From contig JAFQOQ010000015.1 of NCBI GenBank assembly GCA_017403085.1, positions 1 through 36,374 of the forward strand: a stretch of DNA of 36,374 nt, given 5' to 3'. Positions 23,103 to 29,450 of this stretch are shown here, in pieces (the stretch's first letter is position 1; the number at the start of each line of letters is the position of its first letter). This DNA is from Alphaproteobacteria bacterium (lineage in GTDB: Bacteria > Pseudomonadota > Alphaproteobacteria > Rs-D84). The position numbers and the translations under genes are program-made. The notes under the pieces were generated by a model, which worked only from the letters and a program-made list of their open reading frames with translations, was not told the origin of the DNA and ran no database searches.

Positions 23103-24422
23103 ATGTTTAAACGGGTATTGTCTGTTTTGATTTGTTTGTTTGTTGCGTTTTCAGGCGCGCGCGCCGATTTAAAGGTTGATATTATCGCTGGTGCGGCCGA
23201 GCCTATATCAATCGCGGTGCAAAAATTTGAAACTGCGGGCGATGTGCGCAGCAAGGACGCGGCAATGATACGCGAAGTTGTCGAAGCGGATTTAAAACGT
23301 ACGGGATTATTTCATATTGTAAATCATAATGCGTTCCCAGAATTTGTTAAAATGAATGCGCTGCCGAACTTTAAATCGTGGCAGGCAATTAAAACACAGG
23401 TCTTTGTTCAGGCCAAATTATCGGCCGAGGCCGGTGGTCAATATAAATTAGAATTCTATGTGTGGGATGTTAATGGGCGCGAACAGATAGAGGCACAATC
23501 ATTGGTGGCGTCTAAAAAGTCTGCACGACGGTTGGCGCATATTATGGCAGATGCAATATATGAACGATTGACAGGTGAATTGGGATATTTTGATACCCAG
23601 ATTGTATTTATTGCAGAAACAGGGCCGGTACATAAACGGGTAAAACGTTTGGCAATTATGGACCAAGATGGATATGGTATGCGATATTTGTCAGATAAAG
23701 ATACATTTGTTATGTCACCGCATTTTTCGCCAAATATGCAATCAATTGTGTTCTTGTCGTATTATAATGATGATCCGATGGTGTGGTCGTTGGATTTGGA
23801 TACTGGCGAACAGCGCAGATTGGGCCAGTTCGGTGGTATGAATTTTGCGCCACGTTTTTCGCCAGATGGGACCAAGATTGCATTGTCTTTGGTGAAAAAT
23901 GGTATTACGCATATATATGAATATAACATTGAAACCAAGGAATTGCGTCAATTAACGTTTGGAATTTCGATAAATACCAGTCCGTCTTATTCGCCAGATG
24001 GCAAGAAAATGGCGTTTAATTCAGACCGGTCTGGACGCCAGCAGATTCATGTTTTGGATTTAGAAACGGGCGAACAGTCGCGTATTACGTATGGTGCGGG
24101 GCGATATGCAACGCCTGCGTGGTCGCCAGATGGCCAGTTTATTGCATTTACTAAGATTGCAGATGATACGTTCTATGTGGGGATTATGAATCCGCAGGGA
24201 CGTAATGAAAAGATTTTGGCCGGAGGATGGTTTATGGAGGCACCATCATGGGCGCCTGGGTCGCGTCGTGTTGTATATTACGAGACTGAAAAGGCATTAG
24301 ATGGTATAGAACGCATTAGTCATATTCGCAGTGTCGATATAACTGGGCAGAATATATATGACATTGAATTGCCAGAAAATGTAAATGGGCTGGAACCGAC
24401 GTGGTCGCCCAGATTGCCATAA
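23103..24422 (+). CDS. tolB: Tol-Pal system protein TolB
   Basis: TolB is the periplasmic propeller that links TolA and Pal during cell constriction. A signal peptide ends near residue 21 (ARA/DLKVDI). An N-terminal domain follows (PISIAVQKFE..., VVEADLKRTGLFHIV), then a C-terminal beta-propeller with repeated FSPDG/YSPDG/WSPDG blades (ARFSPDGTKIAL-, PSYSPDGKKMAF-, PAWSPDGQFIAF-type). The length of 439 residues is normal. GGAAAGGGG precedes the ATG. A weak promoter-like TAGAAT lies near 23054. The partner pal is 5 kb away on the other strand, and tolQRA are not in the window. Confidence 0.95.
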   Translation: MFKRVLSVLICLFVAFSGARADLKVDIIAGAAEPISIAVQKFETAGDVRSKDAAMIREVVEADLKRTGLFHIVNHNAFPEFVKMNALPNFKSWQAIKTQVFVQAKLSAEAGGQYKLEFYVWDVNGREQIEAQSLVASKKSARRLAHIMADAIYERLTGELGYFDTQIVFIAETGPVHKRVKRLAIMDQDGYGMRYLSDKDTFVMSPHFSPNMQSIVFLSYYNDDPMVWSLDLDTGEQRRLGQFGGMNFAPRFSPDGTKIALSLVKNGITHIYEYNIETKELRQLTFGISINTSPSYSPDGKKMAFNSDRSGRQQIHVLDLETGEQSRITYGAGRYATPAWSPDGQFIAFTKIADDTFYVGIMNPQGRNEKILAGGWFMEAPSWAPGSRRVVYYETEKALDGIERISHIRSVDITGQNIYDIELPENVNGLEPTWSPRLP

Positions 24423-25010: not shown

Positions 25011-25877
25011 CTAGTTTTGATAATAGCAATCATCGGTTAATTCGTATGTACCCTTGGCGTCGGATAGGCTGTCGCCGCTTTGCAGATAGCATTCGGTTAT
25101 GTCTGTTGCAAAGCCTATGCGGATTCCGTCGCCGGTTGTGCCGTATGTTTTGTTGTTGTCGTTGTGTTGCGGACAGCGCATGCATATGTTGAGTTGTTTG
25201 TAATATCCAACATCGCAATTCAGGTTATTATTTAGGCATGTGCCATTTGATGGGCATGATACACATGCGGTGCCAGTGGCGTTTGGTATATATCCACTGT
25301 TACAGACAAATGTCGAACCGTTGCCACCGGCGCATGTTGCGTTGGATGGACATGCGGTACATCCGGTCGTGGATGTCGTGCTGGCGGTGCCATAGAACCC
25401 TTCCATACATTCGCGTGCCATGACGGTTGTTTTACAACTGCATGTATAACTTGAAGTTGTATCGTTGCATGTGTATTGAATTGTCTGTTGGACGGTTTCT
25501 GTATGTCCATAAAGTGAATTATTTCGTGTGGTTGTACCCCGACACGAATTGCATAATAAGTTCGAGCATGTTAAGGTGTCTTTGGTATATGTTGCCGGGC
25601 ATGTAAGGGCGGGCCAATACATGCATGCCAGTTGGTCTTCGTCTAGGTCGCATTCGCAGGTTTCTAGATTTAAAGTATATCCGTTTGGGCATGTTTTTCC
25701 GTCACAGATAGTTTCGATGGTGATACATTCGCATGTACGTGGATCTAGGTAGCCATTCAGGCATGATTTGTTACCGCAGAGGGTCGGGTCGATAATAAGG
25801 TCGCCACTGAAGGCACCGAAAGATTGGGTGGGCAATGCCAAGAATAGGGCAAATAGTGGATATAATAGTTTTTTCAT
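25011..25877 (-). CDS. Secreted Cys-rich repeat protein
   Basis: A 288-residue protein with a signal peptide ending near SFG/AFS (residue 21-22). The mature chain has very many Cys residues in short EGF- or VSP-like units: SCLNGYLDPRTCEC, TCPNGYTLNLETCEC, GCTACPSNATCAGGNGS, ACVSCPSNGTCLNN and CMRCPQHNDN. Such C-x-x-C spacing with GY turns resembles growth-factor-receptor-like repeats of surface proteins, but I assign no function. AGGAGAG precedes the ATG. Upstream lies the structured RNA with a terminator (25906-26100), so expression may depend on read-through. It may share ancestry with the partial protein at 2-310. Confidence 0.75.
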   Translation of the reverse strand: MKKLLYPLFALFLALPTQSFGAFSGDLIIDPTLCGNKSCLNGYLDPRTCECITIETICDGKTCPNGYTLNLETCECDLDEDQLACMYWPALTCPATYTKDTLTCSNLLCNSCRGTTTRNNSLYGHTETVQQTIQYTCNDTTSSYTCSCKTTVMARECMEGFYGTASTTSTTGCTACPSNATCAGGNGSTFVCNSGYIPNATGTACVSCPSNGTCLNNNLNCDVGYYKQLNICMRCPQHNDNNKTYGTTGDGIRIGFATDITECYLQSGDSLSDAKGTYELTDDCYYQN

Positions 25878-25905: not shown

Positions 25906-25936
25906 AAAAAACCGCCGGCAAGTGTCTTAGGCGGTT
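25906..25936 (-). terminator. Terminator in the leader of the Cys-rich gene
   Basis: Minus strand AACCGCC (complement of 25930-25936), 13-base loop, GGCGGTT (complement of 25910-25916), then six T residues. It ends about 30 bases before the Cys-rich ATG. Its first arm can instead pair with 25990-25999. Confidence 0.65.
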
Positions 25937-26100
25937 GGAGGCTTGAAACTATCATGTAAAATAGCGGGCTTATTTAAACATATCGCCACCCTCCAACCGG
26001 TATCCGATTGGAGATGTCGCAATTTTCGAATTGCACGTCGTTACATGAAGTGGTTTCAAGGCCACGTCCCAAGAACACCTTGGGATGTGAATAGAGTAGT
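25930..26100 (-). ncRNA. Candidate structured leader RNA or attenuator (strand uncertain)
   Basis: The region is free of genes and rich in paired segments. CTTGAAAC (25942-25949) pairs with GTTTCAAG (26053-26060), and CATGTAA (25953-25959) with TTACATG (26041-26047); these enclose two hairpins. The first is CTCCAACCGG-TAT-CCGATTGGAG (25991-26013); the second is GCAATT-TTCG-AATTGC (26019-26034). Outside lies CACGTCCCAAG-AACAC-CTTGGGATGTG (26063-26089). CGGTTGGAGG (25932-25941) is complementary to CCTCCAACCG (25990-25999), which competes with both the 25991 hairpin and the minus-strand terminator. I favour the minus strand, as leader of the Cys-rich gene. A free plus-strand small RNA ended by the terminator at 26101-26132 is also possible. 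No known riboswitch, 6S, tmRNA, SRP or RNase P motif fits. Confidence 0.5.
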
Positions 26101-26132
26101 AAAAAAAGTCTGGCATTGCCAGACTTTTTTTT
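26101..26132. terminator. Bidirectional terminator next to plsC
   Basis: A-run plus GTCTGGC (to 26114), loop ATT, GCCAGAC (from 26118) plus eight T residues. It serves plsC on the minus strand and any plus-strand transcript of the structured region. Confidence 0.85.
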
Positions 26133-26853: not shown

Positions 26854-27363
26854 TTAACTTTCTTTGATTCCAAACATTGTGACGATATATTTTATATATT
26901 CTGTTGTCCAGCGTTCAAGACGCTTTGCCGGCGGCATGCCAGTTAGCGTTGCAGGGCATGCGATGATTTCAGTGTTTGGTAATTCGTGTTCTATTAAATA
27001 CATGGCGCGGTTAATGTGGTCTTCGGTGGTGACGACAACCAATCTGTCCAGGCCGTTCTTTATCGCAATGTCTTTGATTGCCAGCGCGTTTTGATACGTC
27101 GATTTCGAATCGGATTCAATAACAACTTGCTGGGTTGTATTTACGGGGACTGTCGCGCCTGCGCCAATGATATACAGGTCTGCATTTGGATATTTGCGCA
27201 ACTGGCGCATGGCAAATGGAATACGGCGTTGGTCGCCGGTTAATACAAATATGCTGTCGTCTTGGCGGATGCCACTGCATATCGTTGGGGCCATCGATTT
27301 AAACATCATGCCCCCCAGCACAAAACAACAGACAATTAAAAATGATGGTGTGAAAAATTTCAT
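26854..27363 (-). CDS. YdcF/DUF218-family protein
   Basis: A 169-residue protein with an N-terminal membrane anchor (about residues 5-25). The DUF218 core reads DDSIFVLTGDQRRIPFAM, then ADLYIIGAG, ESDSKSTYQNALAIK and LVVVTTEDHINRAM, the order seen in YdcF and ElyC/SanA-like proteins. ElyC is linked to envelope and lipid-carrier homeostasis; the reaction is not settled. Its ATG overlaps the ftsX stop (TAATG), so translation is coupled. The location between ftsX and plsC supports an envelope role. Confidence 0.82.
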   Translation of the reverse strand: MKFFTPSFLIVCCFVLGGMMFKSMAPTICSGIRQDDSIFVLTGDQRRIPFAMRQLRKYPNADLYIIGAGATVPVNTTQQVVIESDSKSTYQNALAIKDIAIKNGLDRLVVVTTEDHINRAMYLIEHELPNTEIIACPATLTGMPPAKRLERWTTEYIKYIVTMFGIKES

Positions 27364-28202
27364 TAGCTGTTTTTTAAAATGTTAATTGTTGTGCGCTTGG
27401 TAATGCAAATTGCAAAGATGACAATCAGAATCGGTAATAATATCAATGTTATCCATCCGGCCCCAGATATGCCCAGCATCGCCATTAGGCCAACGCGCGC
27501 AGATGATGCAGTGGATATAATCAATAATAATACCGGGGCAGCAACCAAAAATCCAATTGCACATGCGCTGGCGCAAATCTTGGCAACGATTATTTGCATT
27601 TGGCGGGCGACAAAATTATCGGATGCGCCAATTTGGTTTAATATTTCTAGTTCGCGTTTATGCAACATGGCCGTGTTGCGTGCAATGTATGATATGCATA
27701 CGCCAATCGTCCCCAGCGTCAGCAATAATACCAGTGTGGATATCATTATCATTTTCCAACCCGCAGATGTCGAAGATTTTAATGCGCGGGCGTGTGTTAA
27801 AAAGCGCGCAGATGTGCCGATTTCTTGGCCAAAATCATGCAGCGCCGATTCGGATTTAAATTTAATTTCCCACATCTTTGGCAGGTAATTTTTTAATACG
27901 CTGCCGCCAGAAACCCATGGTGACATTAGTTCGTTCATTTGTTTTGCATCTATCTCGCGAACCGATTCGATTTTGTCTGAATTTTTATCGATAATTTTTT
28001 GTACGGCGTCGGATTTGGATGTGTCCATAACCTGGACGGTGGCAAATAAATCCCATTGCGCGTTCCAGCGTAAAACCCCAGTGCCAATAGATAACGCAAT
28101 GCCCAGCGCAATAACCGCCAAAAATGTTAATAGCGACATAATTGCCGTCATAAATACGGATTGTTCGCGAACCAGTGAAAATACAATTGGTGTTTTCTTC
28201 AT
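27363..28202 (-). CDS. ftsX: Cell division protein FtsX
   Basis: FtsX is the membrane part of FtsEX, which activates septal peptidoglycan hydrolases. There is one N-terminal helix (about residues 18-42), then a periplasmic domain up to about residue 150, and three further helices near 150-172, 210-235 and 243-268. The cytoplasmic loop RELEILNQIGASDNFVARQMQ is typical of FtsX. The gene starts 3 bases after the ftsE stop and overlaps the next gene by one base. The 279 residues are on the short side but normal for alphaproteobacteria. Confidence 0.9.
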   Translation of the reverse strand: MKKTPIVFSLVREQSVFMTAIMSLLTFLAVIALGIALSIGTGVLRWNAQWDLFATVQVMDTSKSDAVQKIIDKNSDKIESVREIDAKQMNELMSPWVSGGSVLKNYLPKMWEIKFKSESALHDFGQEIGTSARFLTHARALKSSTSAGWKMIMISTLVLLLTLGTIGVCISYIARNTAMLHKRELEILNQIGASDNFVARQMQIIVAKICASACAIGFLVAAPVLLLIISTASSARVGLMAMLGISGAGWITLILLPILIVIFAICITKRTTINILKNS

Positions 28203-28205
28203 GTG

Positions 28206-28991
28206 CTATGCGTTCCCGATATCGTCAAATTGTTTTGATAATTCTGCAAAATAGTTTTGTGGTTTTGGGCCACGCCACATTTTCTTTTCAGTGGTGGCAG
28301 GCTGAGCCGCAGACGTGCCAGTAAATGTGACCCGATGGTTTGCAACATTTATCACAGGAAATTTATATGTTTCCATTAACTTTTTACTGTGTGTTGCCAA
28401 TATGATTGTTGTGCCAAACATTTTATTCATTTGAATAAATAATTCCATCAGGCGTGATGCATTTTCATCGTCCAGGTTTCCGGTTGGTTCGTCTGCCAAC
28501 AGGATAGATGGCTGAACAATAATGGCGCGGGCAACGGATACACGTTGTTGCTGGCCACCGGATAATGATTTTGGATTTGCGTCTGCGAATTTGCCCAGGC
28601 CGACCCAATCAAGCACCTTGGCCACCAGTTTTTTTATTTTGTCTTCGGATACGCCACGGACGCGCAGGGGCAGGGCAACATTGTCAAATACCGACAGGTG
28701 TGATAATAACGAATATTCTTGGAATACGATTGCCATGCGTTGGCGCAGGGCGGTTATTTCATCGCGTGTAATATCATTTGTTGTGCGTCCAAATAATTTA
28801 ATTTGACCGCGTGACGGCTTGTGCAATTGGTATATCAATCGCAGCAGCGTTGTTTTACCGGCCCCAGATGCGCCCGATAAAAAATAAAATGCGCCATTAC
28901 TGATGTTAAATGAAACGTCAGATAGAATTTCGGGGGTGCCGTCATATCGTGCGGCAACGTTTGCAAATGATATAGCTGTCTTTTCTTCCAT
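28206..28991 (-). CDS. ftsE: Cell division ATP-binding protein FtsE
   Basis: The ATPase of FtsEX. Motifs are Walker A GASGAGKTT, a Q-loop in FQEYSLL, the ABC signature LSGGQQQRVSVARA, Walker B ILLADEPTGNLD and the switch His in ATHSK. An extra C-terminal tail of about 40 residues (AAQPATTEKKMWRGPKPQNY...) goes beyond the usual FtsE end. No ribosome-binding site precedes the ATG. The promoter TTGACG-N17-TATATT places the -10 only 6 bases away, so the message is probably leaderless. First gene of a four-gene operon. Confidence 0.93.
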   Translation of the reverse strand: MEEKTAISFANVAARYDGTPEILSDVSFNISNGAFYFLSGASGAGKTTLLRLIYQLHKPSRGQIKLFGRTTNDITRDEITALRQRMAIVFQEYSLLSHLSVFDNVALPLRVRGVSEDKIKKLVAKVLDWVGLGKFADANPKSLSGGQQQRVSVARAIIVQPSILLADEPTGNLDDENASRLMELFIQMNKMFGTTIILATHSKKLMETYKFPVINVANHRVTFTGTSAAQPATTEKKMWRGPKPQNYFAELSKQFDDIGNA

Positions 28992-29051: not shown

Positions 29052-29450
29052 TTATTTTTTGACTACAGTTGTGGCATTTCTGTTCTTGGCCCATACTTCT
29101 TCGCCGGTGCCAGGATAGATTGGGTTTTCTTTGCCATAAGATATTGTTTTGATGCGTTCTGATTCAACGCCTTCTTGGATGATTGCGTGTTCTGCGTTGC
29201 CTGCGCGTAATGCGCCCAGTGCCAAATTGTATTCGGATGAACCGCGTTCGTCACAGTGGCCTTCGATAATAATCTGGGTGTCTGGGTTCTTTTTCAGATA
29301 TAGGGCCTGTTTTTTTAATTCTTTGCGTGCGTCCTTGGAAATTTCGGCAGAATCAAATGCAAAGAATGCCTGGCGGCCGTCGATTTGTGATGGAACCTGG
29401 GTACATGCGACCAATGATAATGTCGCCATTGTAAATACGATTTTTTTCAT
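29052..29450 (-). CDS. pal: Peptidoglycan-associated lipoprotein Pal
   Basis: Pal is lipidated in the outer membrane and binds peptidoglycan through its OmpA-like domain. The lipobox LVAC puts the lipidated Cys at residue 16. The OmpA-like domain holds FFAFDSAEI, IIIEGHCDERGSSEYNLALGALRA (Asp and Arg contact diaminopimelate) and WAKNRNATTV. At 132 residues it is short because the linker after the lipidated Cys is brief. AAAGGA lies 9 bases before the ATG. TolB is encoded elsewhere in the window. Confidence 0.93.
   Translation of the reverse strand: MKKIVFTMATLSLVACTQVPSQIDGRQAFFAFDSAEISKDARKELKKQALYLKKNPDTQIIIEGHCDERGSSEYNLALGALRAGNAEHAIIQEGVESERIKTISYGKENPIYPGTGEEVWAKNRNATTVVKK

Follow-up and report, generated by a model that had tools for sequence, protein, structure and literature searches.

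Competing pairings in front of a gene for a Cys-rich secreted protein: a probable C4-type antisense layout turned cis attenuator

Competing pairings in the leader

We begin by considering the minus strand in front of a gene for a Cys-rich protein, in a stretch of 36,374 nucleotides of alphaproteobacterial DNA (the window). The question is whether the mutually exclusive hairpins of this leader make a switch for the gene, and to which kind of RNA such a switch would belong. An earlier note on this DNA had described a hairpin, an antiterminator and a terminator in competition, and had taken the interval 25906-26132 for a possible new riboregulator. Read from the sequence, the three are all present on the minus strand, followed by the Cys-rich secreted gene, and their coordinates are collected in Table 1. 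Of the interval, 26084-25906 holds the proposed switch, while 26132-26101 is the terminator of the upstream gene and does not belong to it.

Table 1. Parts of the leader and its flanks in the window
Feature	Positions	Strand	Remarks
P0 hairpin CCCAAGGUGUUCUUGGG	26068..26084	(-)	5' end of the leader; similar hairpin by eye in most relatives
H1 hairpin GUGG-CCUUGAAA-CCAC	26050..26065	(-)	loop holds a1; stem varies among relatives
a1 CUUGAAA	26054..26060	(-)	partner a'
b1 UCAUGUAA, 8 nt	26041..26048	(-)	partner b'
Variable hairpin	26016..26036	(-)	between b1 and strand A; place of the isrK-type terminator in C4/sRNA-Xcc1 loci
Strand A, anti-antiterminator	26004..26014	(-)	partner B
Strand B CGGUUGGAGG	25990..25999	(-)	partner A or C; 5' edge of the sRNA-Xcc1/C4-like core
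H4	25967..25987	(-)	second hairpin of the sRNA-Xcc1 core, in shortened form
H5 hairpin GCUAUU..GAUAGU	25948..25965	(-)	b' in loop region
b' UUACAUGA	25952..25959	(-)	partner b1
a' UUUCAAG, 7 nt	25942..25948	(-)	immediately 5' of strand C
Strand C CCUCCAACCG	25932..25941	(-)	antiterminator with B; final 5 nt double as terminator
Intrinsic terminator AACCGCC..GGCGGUU + U-run	25906..25936	(-)	5-nt overlap with C
Regulated gene (putative)	25011..25877	(-)	288 aa, 29 Cys, signal-peptide-like start; SD AGGAG just upstream
Separate terminator hairpin	26101..26132	(-)	ends upstream acyltransferase-like gene (named by eye); flank, outside the switch

Strands C and B are complementary at 10 of 10 positions, as had been described, and the terminator arm AACCGCC occupies 25936-25930. 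Strand B can also enter the hairpin A:B, in which 26013-26004 pairs with 26000-25991 through 10 pairs, including one G.U, around a 3-nt loop. The long-range stem that the note had drawn around these hairpins (26060-26041 with 25959-25942) is present as well, as CUUGAAA/UUUCAAG plus UCAUGUAA/UUACAUGA, but it is no mere scaffold of the fold: it constitutes the a1b1:a'b' helix, with which the antiterminator is topologically incompatible. Along the order a1 b1 A B b' a' C, this helix encloses A:B and is compatible with A:B and the terminator together. B:C crosses it, a' abutting C, and the two states should therefore exclude each other.

For the 201 nt of the minus strand the folding energy is -67.8 kcal/mol, compared with -47.5 +/- 4.0 kcal/mol for dinucleotide-shuffled sequences (z = -5.1), and none of the 200 shuffles reaches so low a value. 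The covariance model of the relatives, which counts the window copy among its 44 training sequences, matches the window at exactly one place, the leader. The window contains no tRNA or tmRNA, and no Rfam family matches it at gathering score. A lax Rfam scan of the window returns RF02221 (sRNA-Xcc1) with 31.7 bits and E 7e-4, below the gathering cut-off of 53 bits. The statement that no known RNA family could be recognised here has to be given up, since the core is a sub-threshold relative of sRNA-Xcc1 and the layout is that of the phage C4/isrK RNAs. A conserved riboregulator-like leader with exclusive pairings is what stands of the riboregulator reading; a wholly new RNA is not.

Several other identities are rejected: a T-box (AGGGUGG lies at strand B of the window and is not conserved in relatives), an integron attC site (CTCCAAC/GTTGGAG are similar to its core sites, yet these strands differ between the types and end in terminators), a short leader ORF AUG UUU AAA UAA after GGAGG in H4 (missing from the other copies), and a CsrA-like site (some relatives have ACAGGGAUGU in the loop of P0, but the window and several copies do not). 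The genes around the leader, by eye TolB-like (23103-24422), ABC transporter/FtsX-like (27363-28991) and Pal-like (29052-29450), are ordinary chromosome, so the window copy lies outside any recognisable prophage.

A family of leaders with their own a/b pairs

The next question is whether the leader has relatives. A DNA search of its own genome finds four further copies, each in front of a gene, and the RF02221 model finds more copies in 15 of 30 genomes of relatives and none in 14 control genomes. The set collected comprises 58 loci, 57 besides the window, and a covariance model of the core (R1) is built from these loci. Searched with R1, 75 of the 79 genomes of the order have the element, while in the rest of 190 genomes drawn from the class only 3 do. 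The window's genome of ~1 Mb has 17 core matches, and copy number among relatives ranges from 1 to 48, the highest number again in a genome of ~1 Mb. On the contigs of that genome (G014, e.g. L012 and L027) some adjacent copies are near-identical. Goat rectum, yak rumen and horse faeces samples are among the sources of the relatives' contigs. The earlier observation is thus right but understated: the pairings belong to a larger fold common to 57 further loci.

Absence of covariation in relatives had been named beforehand as speaking against a riboregulator; covariation is strong, and the claim survives. The B:C stem has double-sided changes at 7 of its 8 pairs (44 sequences), and strand A changes along, being CCUCCAAC in type I sequences and CCCUGACC in type II, so that A, B and C changed together. 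RNAalifold, run on the mixed alignment of both types, recovers only B:C because H4 and H5 align poorly between type I and type II; H1, a, b and H5 are therefore examined by a parser, and a/b by permutation. The zero mismatches in 792 pairs that the parser reports are biased by its choice of the best helix, and are left out as evidence for this reason. The stems of H1 vary among relatives (GGGG/CCCC, GAGG/CCUC, GUGG/CCAC, GGCU/AGCC, GGGA/UCCC), and the 16 copies tested from one genome all have different b1 strands.

The permutation test takes the 57 elements with enough flank and scores each upstream region against its own a'/b' and those of all other elements. The element's own a'/b' fall in the top 5% (p<=0.05) in 53 of the 57, where 2.9 are expected, and beat those of all other elements at finding the upstream a1/b1 in 44. 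For a2/b2, a further copy at the RBS of the downstream gene, a single-helix test carries no information and a joint permutation test is used instead; it gives 7 of 57 at p<=0.05 in the window group (2.9 expected), with a median p of 0.50. Judged from sequence, the leader structure is under selection.

A simple detection rule places a terminator after or overlapping C in 44 of 57 elements and in 0 of 20 RF02221 loci; by eye the overlap amounts to 3-5 nt in nearly all elements. The B:C duplex is stronger than A:B in 56 of 57. When the a1b1:a'b' helix is forced, the fold is the minimum free energy structure or close to it, and it is lower than the B:C-forced fold in 54 of 54 usable cases, by a median of 13.6 kcal/mol (14.2 in the window); these energies cover nested structures, a pseudoknot with B:C and a1b1:a'b' together lying outside the calculation. 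A -10-like box is found 30-38 nt 5' of H1 in 34 of 55 copies, and anywhere in a 62-nt stretch in 43 of 55 copies vs 41 of 153 in the control, so many copies seem to own a promoter; in the window copy the box is weak.

The start codon follows the element at a median distance of 48 nt. Of 54 downstream genes, 36 count as signal-peptide-like under a crude hydrophobicity rule, compared with 25 of 145 other ORFs of the same loci (p about 1e-10), and the remaining downstream genes include Cro/C1 HTH proteins, a Stealth capsule-type protein and an RgpF protein. Small HTH-like proteins follow the copies L005, L014, L022, L032 and L038, with the Cro/C1-type HTH confirmed for L005 and L014.

A proposed switch and its rivals

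We turn our attention to what such a leader may do. The reading that we favour, and consider probable, is that a C4-type antisense RNA has been rewired as a cis-acting transcription attenuator of the Cys-rich secreted gene, OFF by default. In the OFF state, a1 (in the H1 loop) and b1 would pair with a' and b' while A pairs with B, and C would stay free to complete the intrinsic terminator with its last bases. In the ON state, the a1b1:a'b' helix would not be made and the C4-like core would close through B:C, which would remove the base of the terminator stem and let RNA polymerase read into the gene. Because the fold with a1b1:a'b' forced is at or near the minimum and the B:C-forced fold is costlier, the leader should terminate by default. 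What is computed are the sequences with their conservation and covariation, the a/b pairing specific to each locus, the missing RBS target, the overlapping terminator and the energy order of the two nested states; that termination is actually regulated, and OFF by default, we infer. Something that engages a1b1 or a'b' would open the leader; this partner could be a protein, RNase P cutting at B, or an RNA able to pair with a or b, and opening by a trans RNA would have its analogy in isrK.

The same parts could instead yield a trans-acting C4-like sRNA: the transcript would end at the terminator, RNase P would cleave it 5' of B, and a core with free a'/b' would silence other mRNAs, read-through being incidental. 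C4 of phages P1 and P7 is cut by RNase P from a longer transcript, and the multi-copy C4-like RNAs of Acinetobacter are apparently RNase P-processed at GG as C4 is, with a'/b' choosing the targets (PMC5320573). Strand B starts at GG here as well, which is compatible with RNase P processing 5' of the closing stem and says no more than that. GCC or ACC follows C as in sRNA-Xcc1, and sRNA-Xcc1 itself is observed as an RNA of ~100 nt (PMC2996969). We nevertheless regard a trans-acting product as unlikely: the element lies close before a same-strand gene and has a terminator of its own that overlaps C, a'b' would be occupied by a1b1 on the same transcript unless the latter were cut off, and the genome search for trans targets of the window's a'/b' returns a single pattern match, about as frequent as with a reversed control pattern, and no second target for the window copy.

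A leader that lowers transcription by a fixed factor, with a fold handed down from a mobile C4 cassette and no regulation, would agree with the amplification of the element in the lineage, and at one locus a partial terminator that acts constitutively and retains a fossil C4 fold would have a similar appearance. The same appearance is not expected across many loci, and here the a/b helices are locus-specific and near-unique in 53 of 57 copies, the A:B/B:C exchange is kept in both sequence types, and the short overlap with the terminator recurs in nearly all; constitutive attenuation is accordingly improbable to us. Even less probable is a metabolite riboswitch, whose conserved core would bind a small molecule and steer the terminator. 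The branched fold, the terminator/antiterminator exchange and an internal loop that most relatives conserve as AUACAACA..GAAA, reduced in the window, would suit it. But that loop is largely missing from the type I copies, to which the window's belongs, nearly every copy has an a and b of its own, the downstream genes share nothing metabolic, and sRNA-Xcc1 loci contain this core as well, with an a/b pairing that reaches the RBS.

If the favoured attenuator reading is true, a type of phage-immunity RNA has been recruited on a large scale as a chromosomal gene switch. The orphan family sRNA-Xcc1 also gains a testable function, a potential pairing with the RBS of the next gene in about half of the loci tested. 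One may speculate, as a long shot, that the lineage holds an RNA-addressed switchboard: dozens of C4-derived attenuators in front of genes for secreted and surface proteins would have their own a/b addresses, and cognate trans RNAs from phage, plasmid or chromosome would open a1b1:a'b' and so turn single surface genes on or off. We know of no work on the regulation of surface proteins in this uncultured gut lineage.

Comparison with sRNA-Xcc1, C4/isrK and attenuators

The closest catalogued relative of the core is sRNA-Xcc1. The window copy aligns over all 87 positions of the RF02221 model, with the closing stem B:C, a hairpin, a hairpin with loop, and the conserved linker, and from B to C the two cores agree in the closing stem, the second hairpin, H5 with b' in its loop, and a' before C. 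The RF02221 model matches the window group at E 1e-7 to 1e-3, the best score in the genus being 46.8 bits, under the 53-bit cut-off; R1 matches 14 of 20 RF02221 loci at the right place, with E up to 0.3 (13 of these below 0.02). Loci above the cut-off occur in 39 of 398 Pseudomonadota genomes, and they share H1, a1 and b1 upstream of the core with the window group, in a region outside the Rfam model. In the same permutation test, RF02221 loci are best of all upstream in 14 of 20 and downstream in 10 of 20. In about half of them the additional strands a2 and b2 lie on either side of the next gene's Shine-Dalgarno, a feature found here and outside the Rfam definition, which the window group is without. 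In L070, an example by eye that is not among the loci passing the permutation test, UCGAAAACCCCAAUAGUAGC stands upstream and UCGAAAAGGAGAAUAGUAGCCAUG at the start codon. Judged from these 20 loci (L059-L078), the catalogued 88 nt of sRNA-Xcc1 seem to correspond to the 3' half of an element of the C4 type; in the literature, partially covered, we found no statement equating sRNA-Xcc1 with C4.

The groups differ in that the terminator follows C in the window group and lies between b1 and B in sRNA-Xcc1 loci, and in that the downstream genes are mostly secreted in the former; SymE (PF08845), BRO-N proteins and others follow the latter. In Xanthomonas integrons sRNA-Xcc1 sits upstream of symE (PMC12444791). 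A CRISPR array of about 20 repeats (L073, 24-1193) lies a few hundred bases upstream of one RF02221 element.

With C4 of P1/P7 (RF01695) and isrK/c4-a1b1 (RF01394) the window group shares the order of parts, P0, H1 with a1 in its loop, b1, and a core with b' in a loop and then a', all placed in the leader of the controlled gene and with a1/b1 complementary to a'/b'. By our own reading isrK is the motif listed as c4-a1b1 in PMC2864571. Genuine C4 loci have the same order, with isrK directly upstream in 2 of 3 scanned. The models do not reach across: RF01695 has no match at E<=1 in the genomes G000, G003, G010 and G014, the window's genome included, and R1 matches 0 of 6 C4 loci. The a' and b' of C4 pair with the RBS of the target (PMC5320573); the window group, in contrast, is without an RBS target and has its terminator elsewhere. 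The isrK-type Rho-independent terminator between b1 and core is absent in the window, where the variable hairpin is plain, without a U-run, and the terminator lies after the core instead. For isrK of Gifsy-1, compensatory mutations were used to test two alternative folds of the middle region: helix b-I, made with sequence further downstream, is the inactive one, and the hairpin b-II within the region is the active one. A trans RNA relieves the inactive helix (PMC4825925).

With attenuators and transcriptional riboswitches that use intrinsic terminators, finally, the leader has in common that anti-antiterminator, antiterminator and terminator share strands, and relatives keep both the bases shared by terminator and antiterminator and the competing anti-antiterminator. 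It differs from them in lacking a T-box, a conserved leader peptide and a ligand domain of any known class; a C4-type antisense pair takes the place of the switching part. The leader is a divergent relative of sRNA-Xcc1 with the layout of C4, although formal membership in both Rfam families fails on score, and the window group probably couples the a/b pairing of these RNAs to a different output.
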